From: Polaribacter atrinae
GTDB taxonomy: Bacteria > Bacteroidota > Bacteroidia > Flavobacteriales > Flavobacteriaceae
Assembly (NCBI RefSeq): GCF_038023995.1
Contig: NZ_CP150660.1
Span: forward strand, 680,501 to 744,500
Direction: 5' to 3'
Length of the DNA stretch: 64,000 nucleotides
The position numbers were made by a program, and so were the translations under genes. Shown in pieces: positions 24,055-49,041 of the stretch; position 1 is the stretch's first letter, and every line of letters begins with the position of its first letter. A model generated the notes under the pieces. That model worked only from the letters and a program-made list of their open reading frames with translations. It was not told where the DNA came from and made no database searches.

Positions 24055-24080
24055 AATTTTCTCCCAAAATATTTACTACA

Positions 24081-24110
24081 AAGCCTCACAAAAATGTGAG
24101 GCTTTTTTTT
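24081..24110 (+). terminator. Intrinsic terminator after the ompH-like gene
   Basis: A perfect 10-bp stem (aagcctcaca/tgtgaggctt) with an aaaa loop and a T-run. Confidence 0.93.
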
Positions 24111-24519
24111 GTTAAATACGTATTGCTAACTTCTGATTAGGTTCTTTGGTTTAACCTATTAAATGATGTTGCTTTATGTGATTTCTCTAAAAGGTCGAAA
24201 TTATAGAAGTTATCTAATTCGTGGACTATTTTGATTAAATACAATGGGCACTACACCGCTTATACTCTGATGTATCTTTTTTGGTTTTAATGGTACAACC
24301 CCTCACAATTAGAGCACTTTTCGAGAGGAGCCTCATAAAGTTGCTCTGGTTTTTGGTAATACTGTTATGCGATTTCTCTTAAAACCGAAATGACAAAAAT
24401 GAAGTCTTTTTAAGGTTGATAATTAACAAATTACTGTTAATAAGTTAATCTATATAAACACCATATAAATTGTACTTTTATCATGAAAAATTCTTCACTT
24501 ATTTGCTATGAAAGAATTT
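24111..24519. other. Non-coding stretch before the cassette array
   Basis: No reading frame or clear promoter is visible. Two similar fragments (gatttctctaaaaggtcgaaat near 24180 and gatttctcttaaaaccgaaat near 24370) look like remnants of dispersed intergenic repeats. Confidence 0.4.
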
Positions 24520-24603
24520 CAAACAAAAACTTAAATAATTGAGCATACTTCCCTAATAAAGGAAGATATGAGGAGTTAAAGTAAGTATATAAACAAGTTA
24601 CCT
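24520..24603 (+). repeat. attC-like (or attI-like) site at the left end of the cassette array
   Basis: The right arm (gtatataaacaaGTTACCT, core GTT at 24597) resembles the right arms of the three attC-like sites downstream (catatacaaacacGTT). A small central hairpin CTTCC/GGAAG occurs at 24548-24565 and the left arm is poorly preserved. Its GTTACCTGC provides the first cassette boundary. Confidence 0.5.
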
Positions 24604-24644
24604 GCAAGTTTGACACAAAATCCTGATAAAAGAAATTAAAATAA

Positions 24645-25523
24645 ATGGAACATAAGGAATCAACTATATTCATAGAACCTCGAAAAACTTTTATGGAAAT
24701 TTTAAAAGTTCATAAACAAGAAGTTCCATTTGCAAATGTTTTAGCATTCTTTTTCAGACCAAAAGAAAATCATAAATTAGAAACTCTTTTTCTGGATGCT
24801 TTACTTGAAACAAGATTTACAAATATTGGAAAAAATTCGAATGAAGAAACAACTCAGGAAATTCCTGTTTATGAAATAACATCAGTTAAAGTTATTGTTG
24901 AGCAACCAACAAAATTTAATAAAAGAATTGATATTTTAATAATTACGAACACATTTGTAGTTTGTATTGAGTTTAAAATAAATCACGATTTAAATAATTC
25001 TTTGACGGAATATAAAGAATATATAAACAACCATAAAAAATTTACGGAAAAGAAAAAATATTACTTTATTCTAACTCCATACAAAAAAGAAGCAATTGGA
25101 GAAGCCAAAAAATATTTTGAAAACCATAATGAATTTAAACAAATAATTTTAAGCCATTTTATTAAACAAATTGACTATAAAATTAAAGAAAACCCCAATA
25201 AATATATATTAAATAAAAAATATGATTATTACATAGATTTCATACAAACTGTAAAAAACAGAGAAATTCGCTCAAAGAGAAATATATTTTTAGAGAATCT
25301 GAAAATTAATTTAAGCAGAAAAAACATAAAAAGTGAATATCATAAAAATATAAATGGTGGATTTTTAGAAATTGAAAAAGAAAAATTTAATTTAAAAGTC
25401 CGATTTAAAAATAAAGGCATCCAAATCGAAAAATGGGAAAAGAAATCAGTTACTATAATTTATAAACAAAATAAAAACCTAGAAACTTTACATTTAATTG
25501 AGATAATAAAAACCAGCAGGTAA
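24645..25523 (+). CDS. Cassette 1: PD-(D/E)XK nuclease-family protein
   Basis: 292 residues, lysine-rich. The core reads RIDILIITNTFVVCIEFKIN: Asp96, then Glu109-x-Lys111, which fits the PD-(D/E)XK active site on two adjacent strands, followed by the helix and KKYYFILTPYK strand. The N-terminus (EVPFANVLAFFFRP..HKLETLFLDALLE) resembles the PDDEXK_4 group. These proteins are common in defence contexts; the exact function is unknown. The stop codon TAA is part of the R'' sequence of the downstream attC-like site, as is common in tight cassettes. AT-richer than the neighbouring core genes. Confidence 0.75.
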   Translation: MEHKESTIFIEPRKTFMEILKVHKQEVPFANVLAFFFRPKENHKLETLFLDALLETRFTNIGKNSNEETTQEIPVYEITSVKVIVEQPTKFNKRIDILIITNTFVVCIEFKINHDLNNSLTEYKEYINNHKKFTEKKKYYFILTPYKKEAIGEAKKYFENHNEFKQIILSHFIKQIDYKIKENPNKYILNKKYDYYIDFIQTVKNREIRSKRNIFLENLKINLSRKNIKSEYHKNINGGFLEIEKEKFNLKVRFKNKGIQIEKWEKKSVTIIYKQNKNLETLHLIEIIKTSR

Positions 25524-25649
25524 CACCGTGTATAATTAATGGCTAGTTCAAGCTTACTTACGAAAATCCTCACGGATTTTCTATTCAGTTTGTATTTGCT
25601 AAATTAGTTTCTTAAAACACGCCACAAATCATACTCAAACACGTTAGCC
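25516..25649 (+). repeat. attC-like site A
   Basis: R'' GCAGGTAAC (25516-25524) and R' GTTAGCC (25643-25649) bound a 134-nt imperfect palindrome. The arms gtgtataattaatg and catactcaaacac pair imperfectly. A perfect inner stem GAAAATCC-tcac-GGATTTTC lies at 25562-25581. Expected recombination point: between G25643 and T25644. Confidence 0.8.
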
Positions 25650-25745
25650 ACAAGTTAACCAGACCAACGAAAATTAGTAATAAATTCAAATTTTTAGATT
25701 TTTAATGAACGAATTTCAATCCGAAAATATAACTGAAACCGAAAA

Positions 25746-26186
25746 ATGAAATTCCTGATTAACAAACCGCATCTGATTTTTTTGCTTTCGATTCCAATAA
25801 TAATCCTATTCGGAATATTAAACAGAAACGAAATGTTGGATATAAATGTTCACGATACTTATTTCGTTTTTAGCCAAATTGATTTAACTATTCTGATTTC
25901 AATTCTTTTCGGAATAATCGGAATTGGATATTGGATGATGCTAAAAGCCAACAGAAAGCTATCCAAATGGCTGAATTTGATTCACATTACGCTGACTTTT
26001 GGCGGAATTTTACTCATATGGATTTTAGCGCAACTTTTCCGAGAATCAATAATGGAATATAATTTCAATAATAATCTGACTTTTGGAATTTATTTAATAG
26101 CTTTAATTGCAATTTTCGGGCAGTTAATTTATCCGATAAATATAATAAGCGCAATAATTAAAAAACGGAATAAAACCAGTGGCTAA
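25746..26186 (+). CDS. Cassette 2: small membrane protein with a cytochrome-oxidase-I-like segment
   Basis: 146 residues with four predicted transmembrane helices (about 8-25, 42-63, 75-95, 112-138). The loop and second helix (NVHDTYFVFSQIDLTILISILFGIIG) resemble the HDTYYVVAHFHYVL region of heme-copper oxidase subunit I, but the His ligands of HFH are replaced. It is therefore not an oxidase; the role is unknown. The gene lies between the exact cassette boundaries 25644 and 26186, and its TAA is part of the R'' sequence. Confidence 0.65.
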   Translation: MKFLINKPHLIFLLSIPIIILFGILNRNEMLDINVHDTYFVFSQIDLTILISILFGIIGIGYWMMLKANRKLSKWLNLIHITLTFGGILLIWILAQLFRESIMEYNFNNNLTFGIYLIALIAIFGQLIYPINIISAIIKKRNKTSG

Positions 26187-26313
26187 CAACGTATATAAAA
26201 AATTGCTGGTTTTATCTAAATCAAAAGGTCGTTGCACGTTTGCTACATCTGATTTTCCTTCGGAAAATCCTCGCACGCAAACCCGCAACTTCCCATATAC
26301 AAACACGTTATGT
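26179..26313 (+). repeat. attC-like site B
   Basis: R'' GTGGCTAAC (26179-26187), R' GTTATGT (26307-26313), 135 nt. Outer arms cgtatata and catatac pair. A perfect inner stem GATTTTCC-ttc-GGAAAATC lies at 26251-26269. Confidence 0.8.
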
Positions 26314-26332
26314 GCAACCTTAAAAAAACTGA

Positions 26333-27202
26333 ATGAATAACGAACAAACTGCAATACGAACTACTTATTTTAGTATAATTGGTAATACCACTTTAGCACT
26401 AATTAAAGGACTTGCAGGATTTTTCGGAAATTCATACGCACTAATTGCAGATGCGATTGAATCTACAACGGATATTTTCGCATCATTTTTAGTATTATTA
26501 GGTTTTAAATATGCTAAACGACCAGCTGATAAAAATCATCCATATGGACACGGAAAAATTGAGCCACTAATAACATTTGGAGTAGTTGCCTTTCTTGTTA
26601 TCTCTGCAACAATAATTGCTTACGAAAGTATTCAGAATATTCAAACGCCACATAAAATTCCGAAATCTTGGACATTAATCGTTTTAGGAATTATAATAAT
26701 TTGGAAAGAAATTTCTTTTCAAGTCGTAATTAGAAAAAGCAAACAAACGAATAGTTCTTCGCTAAAAGCTGATGCTTGGCATCATAGAAGTGATGCAATA
26801 ACTTCTATAATGGCTTTTGTAGGAATATCAATAGCTATCATATTTGGGAAAGGTTACGAAACAGCCGATGATTGGGCAGCCTTATTTGCCTCTGCTTTTA
26901 TTTTATATAACTGCTATTTAATTTTGAGACCAGCGTTAGGAGAAGTTATGGACGAACAACTTTATGACGAACTAATTGTTGAAATTAGAGAAAAATCGAT
27001 TGAAGTTCAAGGTGTTTTAGGAACCGAAAAATGTTTTATTAGAAAATCTGGAATGAATTTCCACGTAGATTTACACGCAATTGTAAATAGTGAATTAACA
27101 GTAAAAGCTGGTCACGATATTGCACATAAATTAAAGGATTATTTAAGAAAAGAAATTCCGAATTTGGGACACGTATTAATCCATATTGAACCAAGTGAGT
27201 GA
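26333..27202 (+). CDS. Cassette 3: CDF-family divalent cation transporter
   Basis: 289 residues, six transmembrane helices and a cytoplasmic C-terminal domain (~205-289; ..GVLGTEKCFIRKSGMNFHVDLHAIV). Cation diffusion facilitators export Zn2+, Fe2+, Mn2+ or Co2+ by H+ antiport. The transport site on helix 5 is H150-x3-D154 (DAWHHRSD). The helix-2 half is E43-x3-D47 (ADAIESTTD) where Zn transporters usually have HxxxD and FieF-type proteins DxxxD, so metal specificity may differ. GNSYALIADAIES and HPYGHGKIEP are family signatures. Complete gene within a cassette. Confidence 0.9.
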   Translation: MNNEQTAIRTTYFSIIGNTTLALIKGLAGFFGNSYALIADAIESTTDIFASFLVLLGFKYAKRPADKNHPYGHGKIEPLITFGVVAFLVISATIIAYESIQNIQTPHKIPKSWTLIVLGIIIIWKEISFQVVIRKSKQTNSSSLKADAWHHRSDAITSIMAFVGISIAIIFGKGYETADDWAALFASAFILYNCYLILRPALGEVMDEQLYDELIVEIREKSIEVQGVLGTEKCFIRKSGMNFHVDLHAIVNSELTVKAGHDIAHKLKDYLRKEIPNLGHVLIHIEPSE

Positions 27203-27210
27203 AAAAGGCA

Positions 27211-27346
27211 GCACATAACACCGTATATAATTTATTGCTGGCTTCTCGCCTACTTACGAAAGTCCTCGAGGACTTTCTTGGTCGGTAATTATTTACTAAA
27301 TTAGGTGCTTAAAACACGCAACAAACCATATACAACAACGTTGTAA
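27211..27346 (+). repeat. attC-like site C
   Basis: R'' GCACATAAC (27211-27219), R' GTTGTAA (27340-27346), 136 nt. Strong similarity to site A (shared ttacgaaa, actaaatta/gctaaatta and cttaaaacacgc blocks). A perfect inner stem GAAAGTCC-tcga-GGACTTTC lies at 27258-27277. Confidence 0.8.
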
Positions 27347-27370
27347 CCAATACAAGAAAAAAACCAGCCA

Positions 27371-29182
27371 ATGATATTAGAAACAGTAAAAATTAAAAAT
27401 TTTAGAGGTTATCAAACTGAAACGATTGTACCAATTTCTAATCTAACTGCGTTCATAGGAAAAAATGACGCTGGAAAATCTACTATCCTTGAAGCTCTTG
27501 AAATATTCTTCAATAACTCTTTAGTAAATTGCGAAAAAGACGATTTAAATATTACTGCTGACAATAACAAAATTGAAATAACGTGTGTTTTTTCTGACTT
27601 TCCAGCTGAATTAATAATTGATGCTGCAAATCCAACAACTTTACAAACTGAATATCTTTTAAACACACAAAACAAACTCGAAATTAAAAAGGTTTTTGCT
27701 GCAACTGCTGCAAAACCAAAAGAGAAAGTTTTTATCATTTGTAATCATCCAAGCGTTGCTAATGGAAATGATTTACTGACTCTTAAAAAAGCTGATTTAA
27801 AAAAGAGAGCAATTCTTTTAGAAATCCCAACCGAAAATTATAATGGAAATGTTAATTCATCAATTCGACAAGCAATAAGGGATTCTTTTGAAAATCTTGA
27901 ACTTCAAGAAACAGAGTTATTAGTTGATAAAGAAGATACTAAAAAAGTCTATGATACTTTAAAATCATATTTACCTCTTTATGCACTTTTCCAATCTGAC
28001 CGACAAAGTAAAGATGATGATAAGGAAGTAACAGACCCAATGAAAATTGCGGTACAACAAGCTTTATCAGAATTAACAGTTGAACTTGAACATATAAAAG
28101 AACAAGTAAGAATTAAAGCAATTGATACTGCAAATAGAACTTTAGGAAAACTCAAGGAAATGTCGCCAGATTTGGCAAACGAACTAATTCCTGAATTTAA
28201 AACAGAGCCTAAATTTGACTCACAATTCAAACTAACAATAAAATCGGAAGAAGATATTCCAATTAATAAAAGAGGAAGTGGTATTCGAAGGTTGATTTTA
28301 TTAAACTTTTTTAGAGCAGAAGCAGAAAGGTTGAGAGCACAAAACCAAGGAAATCAAATAATATTTGCTTTTGAAGAACCTGAAACTTCACAACATCCAG
28401 ACCATCAAGAAATGCTAATTCAAGCATTTATGGAATTGTCTAATACTGGTAATTCACAAATAATTTTAACAACTCATACACCTGCACTTGGAGGTTTGCT
28501 TCCATTGGAAAGTTTGCGTTTCATTCAAAAAAATGGAAATGACAGAACAGTTGAGTCGGGAACTGAAGATGTTTTTGAAAAGATTGCTAACACTTTAGGA
28601 ATATTAGCTGACCCTATTTCAAAAAATGCAAATGCAATTTTACTTTTAGAAGGTAAAAGTGATGTGACATTTGTAAATCACACTGCAAATCAATTAAAAA
28701 ATGGAGGACATATTGACAATACGTTTGAGGACAAAAGAATTGCTTTAGTTCCTATTGGCGGTTGTGGTAATTTAAAGCATTGGACTACTCTTCGCCTAAT
28801 TGACCAATTTGCTATTCCTTATTGCGTAATGCTTGATTCGGATTTAGGCACAAATGAAGAACAACAAAATAAAGACAAAATTCAAGAATTGAGAAACAAT
28901 GGAATAAAAGCATATTTAACATTAAAGCGAGAACCTGAAAATTATGTTCATCTTGATGTATTGAATTTGCCAGCGGGAAGCACTTTTAACATTACAGACA
29001 CTTGTGATGCAAAAGTTCTAATTGCAGCAGAAAAAATATCAAGAAAACAAAATGTTCTTGAAAACTATTGGACTCTTATGACAACAGAACAAATTAGAGA
29101 AATGGAAAAATATGATGACAATGGAACAGAACGTTATGAATTTACAGATATGTTCAAAGATTTATTAAACATTGTACCATAA
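27371..29182 (+). CDS. Cassette 4: OLD-family ATP-dependent endonuclease (AAA + TOPRIM)
   Basis: 603 residues. N-terminal ABC/AAA15 ATPase: IKNFRGY, Walker A G30-KNDAGKST38, signature region INKRGSGIRRLILL, Walker B IIFAFEEPETSQHP, then TTHTP. C-terminal TOPRIM: LLLEGKSDV with Glu427 and YCVMLDSD with Asp489/Asp491. OLD proteins are metal-dependent nucleases; the same architecture is found in GajA of the Gabija anti-phage system, but no UvrD-like gajB follows, so it is a stand-alone OLD protein. Located in a cassette; a defence role is inferred. Confidence 0.85.
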   Translation: MILETVKIKNFRGYQTETIVPISNLTAFIGKNDAGKSTILEALEIFFNNSLVNCEKDDLNITADNNKIEITCVFSDFPAELIIDAANPTTLQTEYLLNTQNKLEIKKVFAATAAKPKEKVFIICNHPSVANGNDLLTLKKADLKKRAILLEIPTENYNGNVNSSIRQAIRDSFENLELQETELLVDKEDTKKVYDTLKSYLPLYALFQSDRQSKDDDKEVTDPMKIAVQQALSELTVELEHIKEQVRIKAIDTANRTLGKLKEMSPDLANELIPEFKTEPKFDSQFKLTIKSEEDIPINKRGSGIRRLILLNFFRAEAERLRAQNQGNQIIFAFEEPETSQHPDHQEMLIQAFMELSNTGNSQIILTTHTPALGGLLPLESLRFIQKNGNDRTVESGTEDVFEKIANTLGILADPISKNANAILLLEGKSDVTFVNHTANQLKNGGHIDNTFEDKRIALVPIGGCGNLKHWTTLRLIDQFAIPYCVMLDSDLGTNEEQQNKDKIQELRNNGIKAYLTLKREPENYVHLDVLNLPAGSTFNITDTCDAKVLIAAEKISRKQNVLENYWTLMTTEQIREMEKYDDNGTERYEFTDMFKDLLNIVP

Positions 29183-29187
29183 GTACT

Positions 29188-29276
29188 GGTTACAACAAAG
29201 TACTGTGGTAAAAAACAAATAAAAACTCATTAATTTTTCACTAAAACACTTCTATAATTATTATCATAAGTTAGTC
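29188..29276 (+). repeat. Degenerate attC-like site D at the right end of the array
   Basis: R'' GGTTACAAC (29188-29196) is an exact partner of the start of cassette 4. A possible right end has aaaacac followed by atcataaGTTAGTC (core 29270-29276), similar to site A, but the inner palindrome is missing. Probably a decayed site that ends the array. Confidence 0.45.
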
Positions 29277-36174: not shown

Positions 36175-36420
36175 TCTTATATATTTTCAAACTTTAACTA
36201 AAATAGTTACTTCTTATTTTATGATTTAAATGGTGTTTTTATCGATCGTATTGTCGTTCACAATGTAATTACTGTGATAAAAAAAACTATAAACCAACAA
36301 AAACAAAGTTAAACCAAAACTTAAACAAACAGCATTTAACTAATTGATTTTAAAATTCATAAAAATAAAAAAAACTATTAAAAAGACAACTATCAATTTT
36401 TCTTATAGTCTATAATTTGT

Positions 36421-36505
36421 TTGCGTTAAGGATTGGAGCGGCATCCTTTTTGTTTTTACAAAAAGATATAGTGTAAAGCCTGACCTTTTTAGGGAACGCC
36501 CAACT
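36421..36505 (+). ncRNA. Structured intergenic RNA candidate (Flavo-1-like)
   Basis: An outer stem GCGTT (36423-36427)/AACGC (36495-36499) encloses a hairpin AAGGAT/ATCCTT (36428-36433, 36443-36448) and a second possible helix CTTTTTGT-tttt-ACAAAAAG. The words gcgttaaggattggagcgg...agtgtaaagcctgacc look like a recurring intergenic element of flavobacterial genomes, which I associate from memory with the Flavo-1 motif; this was not checked. The region 36175-36577 holds no gene. Confidence 0.45.
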
Positions 36506-40863: not shown

Positions 40864-42135
40864 ATGGCAGTAAAAGTTAAATTAAGAGAAAAAAATATTT
40901 CTGGAGGACGTAAAAGTTTATACCTCGACTTCTACCCTGCCATTACAAATCATAAAACAGGAAAAAAAACACGTAGAGAGTTTCTAGGGCTGTACCTTTA
41001 TTTAGATAAAAAAGAGCTAAAAAGTGATTTACAAAAATTAGAAGAAAGAATAAAAAACCTAAAGTTACAGGGTAAGGATACTACATCACAAGAAAAAGAG
41101 CTCCTAGATACTGAAACTTTTTTAAAGACTTTCAAAGGACTATCTTCTACAGACAAAATGCACAATTCTAACACCTTAAGAAGAGCAGAAAGTATTAGGC
41201 AAAAACGTGATAACATTATAGGTAAACCAGAAATTTATAGTAATGTAGAGAAGGAACAATTAAGAATTAATGAGTTAGGTGAACAATGTTTTATTGAGTA
41301 TCTAAAAAAACTAGCTAATAAGAAGTACGGCTCTACGCATAGTAGCTGGATTTCTGCTTTAAAATTCTTTGAAGCTTTCACAAAAGGAAGTGTAAAATTT
41401 AAAGATCTTACTCCTAACCTATTAGAGGATTTTAAAAGTTATTTACTAAAAGCAAATAGCAATAAGAGTAGTAAAGTAAAGCTTAAAATTAATACTGCAT
41501 CTTCTTACTTCAATAAGATAAAGGCTGCTCTAAAACAGGCATATAAAGACGAGATACTCCAAACTGATTTAAATAATAAGATATCCCCCATAGCAGAAGA
41601 AGAAACAAGAAGAGATTTCCTAACAATAGAAGAGGTAAATATATTATATAAAACCTCCTGTAAAAATATCTTATTAAGACAAGCAGCTATCTTCTCAGCA
41701 CTTACAGGAATGGCCTTTAAAGAAATCCAAAATATGGTTTGGGACGACATTACTTTTTCTCAAAACACTGGCTATACAATATTAACAAAAAGACAAAAAA
41801 CTAAAAGTGATAATTATTTACCTATATCTGAACAAGCATTTAGCTTATTAGGCAAACGCAAAGAACCTACTGAAAAAGTATTTAAAGGATTAAAATATTC
41901 AGCATACAATAATAAACATTTAGCTGAGTGGATAAGTTCTGCTGGAATATCAAAAAAGATTACCTTTCATTGCTTTAGACACACTTACGCAACTTTACAG
42001 TTAAGCAACGGAACAGATATGTATACTTTATCAAAAATGTTAGGACATAAGAGTATAAAAACAACTGAAATCTATGCAAAAATTATAGATAAGGTGAAAC
42101 GAGATACAACTGATAAAATCAAACTTGACCTATAA
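40864..42135 (+). CDS. int: Tyrosine recombinase (CTnDOT/phage_int_SAM_5 type integrase)
   Basis: 423 residues: arm-binding N-terminus (~1-60), SAM-like core-binding domain (~130-230), catalytic domain (~245-420). Catalytic residues visible: H369-x2-R372 (FHCFRH), H395 (LGHKS) and Tyr404 (TEIYAK). The position of the first catalytic Arg is Ala284 (LTGMAFKEI); CTnDOT IntDOT also lacks this Arg, so activity is plausible. It should catalyse integration at the mnmE end. Not an IntI-type integron integrase, as it has no such additional domain. Confidence 0.92.
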   Translation: MAVKVKLREKNISGGRKSLYLDFYPAITNHKTGKKTRREFLGLYLYLDKKELKSDLQKLEERIKNLKLQGKDTTSQEKELLDTETFLKTFKGLSSTDKMHNSNTLRRAESIRQKRDNIIGKPEIYSNVEKEQLRINELGEQCFIEYLKKLANKKYGSTHSSWISALKFFEAFTKGSVKFKDLTPNLLEDFKSYLLKANSNKSSKVKLKINTASSYFNKIKAALKQAYKDEILQTDLNNKISPIAEEETRRDFLTIEEVNILYKTSCKNILLRQAAIFSALTGMAFKEIQNMVWDDITFSQNTGYTILTKRQKTKSDNYLPISEQAFSLLGKRKEPTEKVFKGLKYSAYNNKHLAEWISSAGISKKITFHCFRHTYATLQLSNGTDMYTLSKMLGHKSIKTTEIYAKIIDKVKRDTTDKIKLDL

Positions 42136-48904: not shown

Positions 48905-49041
48905 CTTACAATATCTTGCTTAAAAAATTTCAATATTTAGCTTAATTTAAAACTTGTTACATTTTTGCTAACATCTGAATTTTCGCTGGAAATTCCTCGT
49001 TCACAAAATCGAAACTCTCCAAACAAAACAACGTTAAAAGG
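48905..49041 (+). repeat. attC-like remnant between hsdS and hsdR
   Basis: The right part has the same design as attC-like site B: tttgctaacatctg, a stem GAATTTTC-gct-GGAAATTC (48977-48995, one G-T pair), tcctcg, and a cacaaa...acaacGTTAAAA end (core GTT 49033). The left end gcttacaatat (near 48915) nearly matches the complement of the start of the segment (GTTGTAAAC at 48437), 7 of 8. Probably decayed. Confidence 0.45.

Follow-up and report, generated by a model that had tools for sequence, protein, structure and literature searches.

Results

A cassette array in the window

We describe a gene-cassette array of Polaribacter atrinae (Flavobacteriaceae; assembly GCF_038023995.1, contig NZ_CP150660.1), which lies in a 64,000-nucleotide stretch of DNA (positions 680,501 to 744,500 of the forward strand), referred to here as the window. 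Behind a leader that ends at an attI-like junction stand four consecutive cassettes of one gene each, all in the same orientation, and the first three end in intact attC-like recombination sites. This is a real integron-type gene-cassette array, one outpost of a system that has well over a hundred cassettes in the genome and relatives throughout the family. Its parts, in window positions, are as follows.

24055..24597, plus strand: leader, stopping at the cassette junction and conserved in congeners
24586..24599, plus strand: attI-like junction TATATAAACAAG|TT, cut after G24597
24598..25643, plus strand: cassette 1, 5' end TTACCTGC mirroring its own R'' GCAGGTAA
24645..25523, plus strand: gene 1, PD-(D/E)XK_4 protein, 292 aa (Pfam PF14281, 1e-17; PADLOC PDC-S26, 2.1e-23)
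25522..25645, plus strand: attC-like site 1, from AAC to GTT (covariance model R1, 98.8 bits, E 3.1e-18)
25644..26307, plus strand: cassette 2, own R'' mirrored by the 5' end over 6 nt past GTT
25746..26186, plus strand: gene 2, small protein, 146 aa (marginal COX1 match, Pfam PF00115, 35.0 bits against a cut-off of 34.8)
26185..26309, plus strand: attC-like site 2 (model R1, 112.3 bits)
26308..27340, plus strand: cassette 3, own R'' mirrored by the 5' end over 6 nt past GTT
26333..27202, plus strand: gene 3, cation diffusion facilitator, 289 aa (Pfam Cation_efflux, 5.5e-47)
27217..27342, plus strand: attC-like site 3 (model R1, 113.8 bits)
27341..29269, plus strand: cassette 4, with an exact 8-mer pair; right end approximate
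27371..29182, plus strand: gene 4, OLD/GajA-like AAA ATPase-TOPRIM protein, 603 aa (Pfam AAA_15, 4.2e-93; OLD-like TOPRIM, 1.9e-8)
48910..49035, plus strand: isolated attC-like site (model R1, 72.8 bits, E 7e-13)

An earlier sequence-only reading of this DNA had claimed that each cassette opens with 8 bases that are the reverse complement of the 8 bases opening the palindromic site at its end. This mirrored-boundary observation is confirmed as real, the pairs being present in cassette 1 (TTACCTGC at 24598, GCAGGTAA at 25516), cassette 2 (TTAGCCAC at 25644, GTGGCTAA at 26179), cassette 3 (TTATGTGC at 26308, GCACATAA at 27211) and cassette 4 (TTGTAACC at 27341, GGTTACAA at 29188). The palindromic site that it placed at every cassette end is intact in three cases; for cassette 4 the covariance model, run with filters off, found no intact site. 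Its own site has decayed beyond the R'' word (29188-29196), the sole remnant, which makes the right end of this cassette approximate. Stop codons, said to be built into R'', are found there in two of the four genes (genes 1 and 2). Missing from the earlier reading was the attI-like left end of the array, a 14-mer (TATATAAACAAG|TT) with two copies in the 4.01-Mb genome. The second lies at C1:3853945-3853958 on the minus strand, ~90 bp past the stop codon of an array-adjacent recombinase gene, and is found where the first cassette of the array there starts.

Cassette boundaries and site numbers across the genome

We searched the genome of the window (G000) with nhmmer, using a profile of the sites, and with the covariance model. 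The large array has 122 full-length sites on one strand, spread with gaps over 171 kb (C1:1,062,970-1,234,224), and a second array of 28 sites lies at 3.81-3.85 Mb beside a tyrosine recombinase. Small outposts comprise two sites near 3.996 Mb and the three in the window, to which the covariance model adds the site at 48910-49035, so that the further copies which the sequence-only reading had proposed to look for amount to at least ~156 sites in the genome stretches fetched. For the longest open reading frame (ORF) of 50 aa or more, 111 of 132 cassettes have it on the array strand and 13 on the opposite strand, and 8 have none; in the 111, the start codon follows the cassette start at a median distance of 41 nt.

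The match between the two ends of a cassette was tested in 131 of 139 cassettes, 8 longer than 2.6 kb having been dropped. The 7 nt after GTT are an exact reverse complement of the beginning of the site in the same cassette in 76 of the 131, and a run of at least 6 agrees in 108, which is far beyond chance: 1000 shuffles gave a mean of 1.7 and a maximum of 8 exact matches, and pairings with neighbours gave 2 and 3 of 127. In the arrays of relatives the own R' and R'' agree exactly over 6 nt in 85 of 119 cassettes (shuffle mean 2.3, maximum 8). The feature by which membership among integron cassettes is recognised, a 5' end and an R'' that come from one attC, is thus found in this genome and in its relatives. 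Position 8 past GTT never matches, and positions 9-11 match again at frequencies of 0.86, 0.89 and 0.72 (0.57, 0.40 and 0.36 when shuffled); the paired arm is therefore longer than the classical R box. The GTTRRRY/RYYYAAC consensus, a defining mark of IntI-based integrons, is seen in the R' of 10 and in the R'' of 9 of the 131 cassettes, in agreement with the earlier remark that the bases after GTT are not RRRY.

Several observations concern single sites. Solo right halves (model 62-66 to 127) occur within the large array at G000:C1 1091577, 1168747, 1178568, 1182929 and 1213349. At loci L311 and L312 of congeners G642 and G645, respectively, an attC-like site is interrupted near the middle by a transposase-like element of two ORFs, model positions ~56-63 being present on both sides, which suggests an insertion sequence that targets attC hairpins. 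No similar site was found in phage records. Similar sites are carried by two Tenacibaculum finnmarkense plasmids (CP116298.1 and CP116296.1; 94% and 83%), so such cassettes can ride plasmids, and by the Persicobacter replicon NZ_AP025294.1 (72%).

Cassette movement and comparison with congeners

Thirty pairs of cassettes within the genome reach 90% identity or more across 90% or more of their length, and 15 of these are 100% identical (437-1263 bp), one of them spanning arrays ~2.65 Mb apart on the contig. The right flanks of all 30 pairs are only 23-55% alike. A single cassette of the 132 (767 bp) has an end-to-end counterpart in the array of G642, at 98.2% identity, and the protein of the adjoining ompH gene there is 91% identical.

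At the window locus the leader is retained in both G642 and G645 as far as ATATAAACAAG|TT and is followed by cassettes other than those of the window, while in G659 the locus is empty, with a gap of 134 bp between ompH and msrA. The leader is 89% identical to that of G642 over 580 columns (leader positions 3-553) and 91% identical to that of G645 over the last 240 columns, with an insertion of ~2.1 kb further upstream, and these matches stop at most 10 nt from the junction. That single cassettes come, go and move with exact boundaries, a hallmark of integrons, is demonstrated by comparison of genomes only. Related species with different cassettes behind one G|TT junction, and near-identical cassettes elsewhere as units from G|TT to G|TT, bear out the integron-cassette reading, which had asked for relatives to be compared at exactly this point. 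The leader (24055-24597), conserved partly or wholly in two congeners, is a candidate cassette promoter; it has no second copy in the fetched regions of the same genome, and tblastn gave no support to the idea that it is an integrase remnant, which we rejected.

Fold of the sites

Covariation, like the anatomy of the sites, is demonstrated in the 105 unique circular-form sites that were obtained from the 120 of 132 cassettes passing a 6-of-7 match between R' and R''. Of 1365 L-box cells, 1346 hold a Watson-Crick pair and none a G-T pair, with up to four types of pair. The conserved interior mismatches are A.C when read on the top strand and hence G.T on the bottom one. Folding with DNA parameters favours the bottom strand in 120 of 120 circular forms, against 29 of 120 coding controls, and we infer that this strand is the folded substrate. 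A conserved hairpin with unpaired positions that favours the bottom strand is again a mark of integrons. The foldback anticipated by the sequence-only reading exists, covarying and with conserved mismatches and an asymmetric unpaired spacer; the extrahelical bases that were to go with it are not clearly evident as single bases. Rfam at its gathering threshold gave nothing at the window sites, and its one match in the window is a Flavo-1 RNA (RF01705) at 36403-36489 (53.9 bits).

The array-adjacent recombinase

The earlier statement that there is no integrase holds for the window array, but elsewhere the genome encodes an array-adjacent tyrosine recombinase that is not a standard IntI. This chief candidate (374 aa; G000:C1:3854044-3855168, minus strand) lies beside the 28-site array, and a 407-aa paralogue near 2777 kb is another candidate. 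Canonical IntI was rejected as the enzyme, since nothing in this genome scores over the TIGR02249 cut-off, the only matches being partial ones (2-176 and 239-315). The KR and HxLRH motifs are 58-59 aa apart in 26 of 27 family sequences and 100 aa apart in 21 of 25 IntI, the remainder (1 of 27 and 4 of 25) having been misread or left unread by the pattern. A phmmer alignment to IntI4 splits around IntI4 residues 213-243, and a tree sets IntI apart from the flavobacterial enzymes. The IntI-specific additional domain (an insertion of ~42 aa), another defining mark of IntI-based integrons, is absent. The likely integrase is an Xer-like core without this domain. An attI with the same G|TT junction lies beside the recombinase in its own genome and, by an automated own-R'' match, at 15 of 39 loci.

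Most array-associated copies of the recombinase have an added N-terminal domain (N-domain), which is possibly HARP-like. The order of its elements fits the description of HARP in PMC4666394 (a five-stranded sheet on two helices), and its closest known counterparts would be HARP, the substrate-recognition domain of SMARCAL1 and UvsW, and the related part of XPB. Pfam HARP matches 2 of 27 sequences (best 6.6e-4) and 1 of 19 N-domains (4.4e-5); a profile of the N-domain had only chance matches among PDB sequences, and none to HARP. The rows of the VIA list include no HARP chain, which speaks neither for nor against the resemblance. That the N-domain is a strict requirement was rejected, recombinases without it also adjoining arrays.

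Genes resembling dinB and dnaE precede the integrase on the same strand, ~35 nt separating it from dnaE (L058:14044-19381, which is G000:C1:3854044-3859381, minus strand). This neighbourhood may tie cassette recombination locally to mutagenesis after DNA damage. As a conserved SOS link it was rejected, tblastn finding it at 0 of 59 other recombinase loci (a few kb upstream of each, with a positive control in the genome's own array); since neither gene is in the fetched regions of the other loci, the arrangement is local as far as seen. The window also contains a tyrosine recombinase match in a 437-aa frame at 41617-42081 (PF00589, 73 bits), possibly part of a separate mobile element.

Linkage and distribution

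We searched 149 genomes of the family, from 148 genera, for recombinase relatives (E<=1e-40) and for sites (E<=1e-3). Recombinase relatives were found in 101 and sites in 132, with both in 99 genomes, sites alone in 33, the recombinase alone in 2 and neither in 15; at least two site matches occur in 121 genomes. Linkage of recombinase and array is demonstrated by the geometry of 60 recombinase loci, where the full sites number 192 downstream of the gene on its own strand and 9 in other positions, all 9 on the divergent side. The 17 other single-contig genomes with a recombinase match contain 23 loci, and at 19 of these a site follows within ~14 kb downstream. No full-length site is found downstream in the single-contig genomes G021, G078 and G123 and at one of the four loci of G125, and the sites of these exceptions may be divergent or absent.

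Where at least 3 kb of downstream sequence was at hand, a site lies within 10 kb at 28 of 38 loci with an N-domain (E<1e-3) and at 3 of 12 loci without it (Fisher p 0.005); among the latter 12, two have divergent N-domains just past the cut-off. The divergent layout of integrase and array is the usual one for integrons. It is found at 4 of 10 examined loci of short recombinases (~280 aa, no N-domain), where own R'' matches are seen in 5 of 9 cassettes; these four loci (L351, L352, L353 and L354) have attI-like junctions such as GTATATAGTAACG|TTG. Loci from named records with downstream sites include those of Algibacter (now Cognatitamlana) onchidii, Seonamhaeicola aphaedonensis and Winogradskyella ursingii. 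In a sample of the class the family-tuned model matched 28 of 198 genomes. IntI over the TIGR02249 cut-off was found in 84 of 296 genomes of a phylum sample, of which by best E-value G288 alone belongs to the same class, and in 0 of 30 family genomes sampled.

Discussion

Taken as a whole, the window array is very probably an integrase-less attI outpost of an integron-type system, served by a tyrosine recombinase encoded elsewhere. Cassettes would exist as circles with one recombination site each, which folds as single-stranded DNA; a tyrosine recombinase would insert them at ATATAAACAAG|TT or at the G|TT of resident sites and would also excise them. Bottom-strand G.T wobbles, the counterparts of the top-strand A.C mismatches, would favour that strand as the folded substrate, and the N-terminal, possibly HARP-like, domain may help to bind the folded sites. 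We infer that the array-adjacent recombinase is the catalyst and that, encoded elsewhere, it would act in trans on the window array; the N-domain presumably has a role in recombination.

Several results weigh against this interpretation. Twelve of 132 cassettes failed the 6-of-7 match, and because they were excluded the R-box counts in the covariation set are selected (the L-box counts are not). For single integrated sites of the window the gain in folding over shuffles is modest (z -1.7 to -3.0), and the minimum free energy structure differs from the consensus stem. Left flanks, too, are 85-98% alike in 8 of the 30 duplicate pairs, so that homologous recombination is possible for these. Sites occur without a recombinase match in 33 of 149 genomes, only one site match is present in 11 of the 132 genomes that have any, and 10 of the 38 N-domain loci have no site within 10 kb; among named-record loci with a related recombinase, this genome's profile finds downstream sites at 7 of 64 (of 80). 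The N-domain gives a weak Foldseek match to HARP (E 0.02, root-mean-square deviation 6.9) and is not essential, because arrays also adjoin recombinases that lack it (the 4 of 10 divergent loci; co-directionally in G039).

Housekeeping XerC and XerD might move the sites, as they do with dif-using mobile elements, and the array-adjacent recombinases would then be passengers. Recombinases of XerC/D size are present in the genome, and this account would accommodate both the window array without an integrase and the 33 genomes with sites and no close recombinase homologue. It is nonetheless improbable, given that one recombinase family stands beside the sites in a fixed geometry (192 downstream on the same strand against 9), that an attI-like junction follows its gene by own-R'' match at 15 of 39 loci, and that the attI 14-mer occurs only at the recombinase gene and in the window. 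Even less probable is a canonical IntI-type integron that lost its IntI and left clusters of attC sites lacking integrases (CALINs) behind: although IntI exceeds the cut-off in 84 of the 296 phylum-sample genomes, and intI is listed for the Bacteroidetes/Chlorobi group (PMC2426708) and for Bacteroidota (PMC8618304), only G288 of the 84 is in the class by best E-value, none of the 30 family genomes nor this genome has an IntI over the cut-off, GTTRRRY is found in 10 of 131 cassettes, and the two groups of enzymes are apart in the tree. That the sites are ordinary structured repeats, such as RNA terminators or repetitive extragenic palindrome (REP)-like elements, with genes shuffled by homologous recombination between repeats of ~125 nt, is scarcely credible. 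The sites are similar in sequence and the upstream site is 85-98% alike in 8 of 30 duplicate pairs, but the boundary words vary among cassettes and match within each, the L-box stems have no G-T in 1365 cells, unlike RNA, and identity to congeners stops at a G|TT junction that is not preceded by an attC.

The system of integrase and cassettes outlined above shares much with sedentary chromosomal integrons of the VchIntIA/VCR type and with archaeal integrons (PMC9668308): tandem single-gene cassettes mostly in one orientation, a foldback site of ~125 nt with R and L boxes, the own R'/R'' match with a G|TT junction, an attI beside the integrase, and more than 100 cassettes. It differs from both in an integrase that lacks the IntI-specific additional domain and has an added N-domain, in an R box that is not GTTRRRY and is mirrored over ~7 nt past GTT, with a constant mismatch and then more pairing, and in an integrase that is mostly co-directional with the array, the attI lying behind its 3' end. 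Judged by its sequences, the system works like an integron, yet it lacks two of the features that define the IntI family, the additional domain and the R-box consensus. The same-strand layout is shared with the reversed integrons of the Treponema type, in which integrase and cassettes lie on the same strand; these have a standard IntI, which is not the case here. In the available text on XerA-like or 'integron-like' simple recombinases (NF040815; PMC8138268) no insertion-less member is tied to cassette arrays, and the scores against NF040815 (201.8 and 214.3) are under its cut-off of 220.

In PMC9668308 the additional domain is named as a defining characteristic of integrons. Smyshlyaev et al. 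2021 (PMC8138268) state that integrons need the insertion to function, although it is incompletely conserved within their integron-like subgroup. The Bacteroidetes/Chlorobi group and Bacteroidota are named, respectively, among integron carriers (PMC2426708, PMC8618304). In PMC9024848 the authors of IntegronFinder 2.0 report that their previous survey had only In0 elements; Salinibacter later supplied the one complete integron of Bacteroidetes proper. No integrons are reported in PMC10013915, where IntegronFinder 2.0 was applied to a Tenacibaculum, a genome outside the present search. The missing IntI part of the likely enzyme may be why standard searches overlook the system. Among the titles and abstract openings listed in searches of the openly licensed PMC literature, none describes flavobacterial integrons or array-linked insertion-less integrases; an earlier description is possible.

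We consider it likely that Flavobacteriaceae, and probably much of Bacteroidia, have a separate integron lineage with Xer/XerA-like recombinases that lack the IntI additional domain. It would come in two designs, a co-directional one with a HARP-like N-domain enzyme and a divergent one with a short enzyme, and some hosts would have integrase-less attI outposts served in trans. Integrons have been described as rare in Bacteroidetes, whereas here sites are found in 132 of 149 family genomes and at least ~156 of them in one. If active, this would be a very large and apparently unrecorded gene-capture system, whose genes are mostly unnamed and some of them defence-like; in the window, gene 1 would encode a candidate defence-type nuclease, and the product of gene 4 appears defence-like from its PADLOC matches to AriA (4.5e-74) and GajA (1e-27). 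The need for the IntI additional domain in single-strand attC recombination would then become testable, as would the question of whether a HARP-like, fork-type recognition domain takes over part of its role. Should the separate lineage be real, integron chemistry would have arisen or persisted without the domain that has been deemed essential for it.

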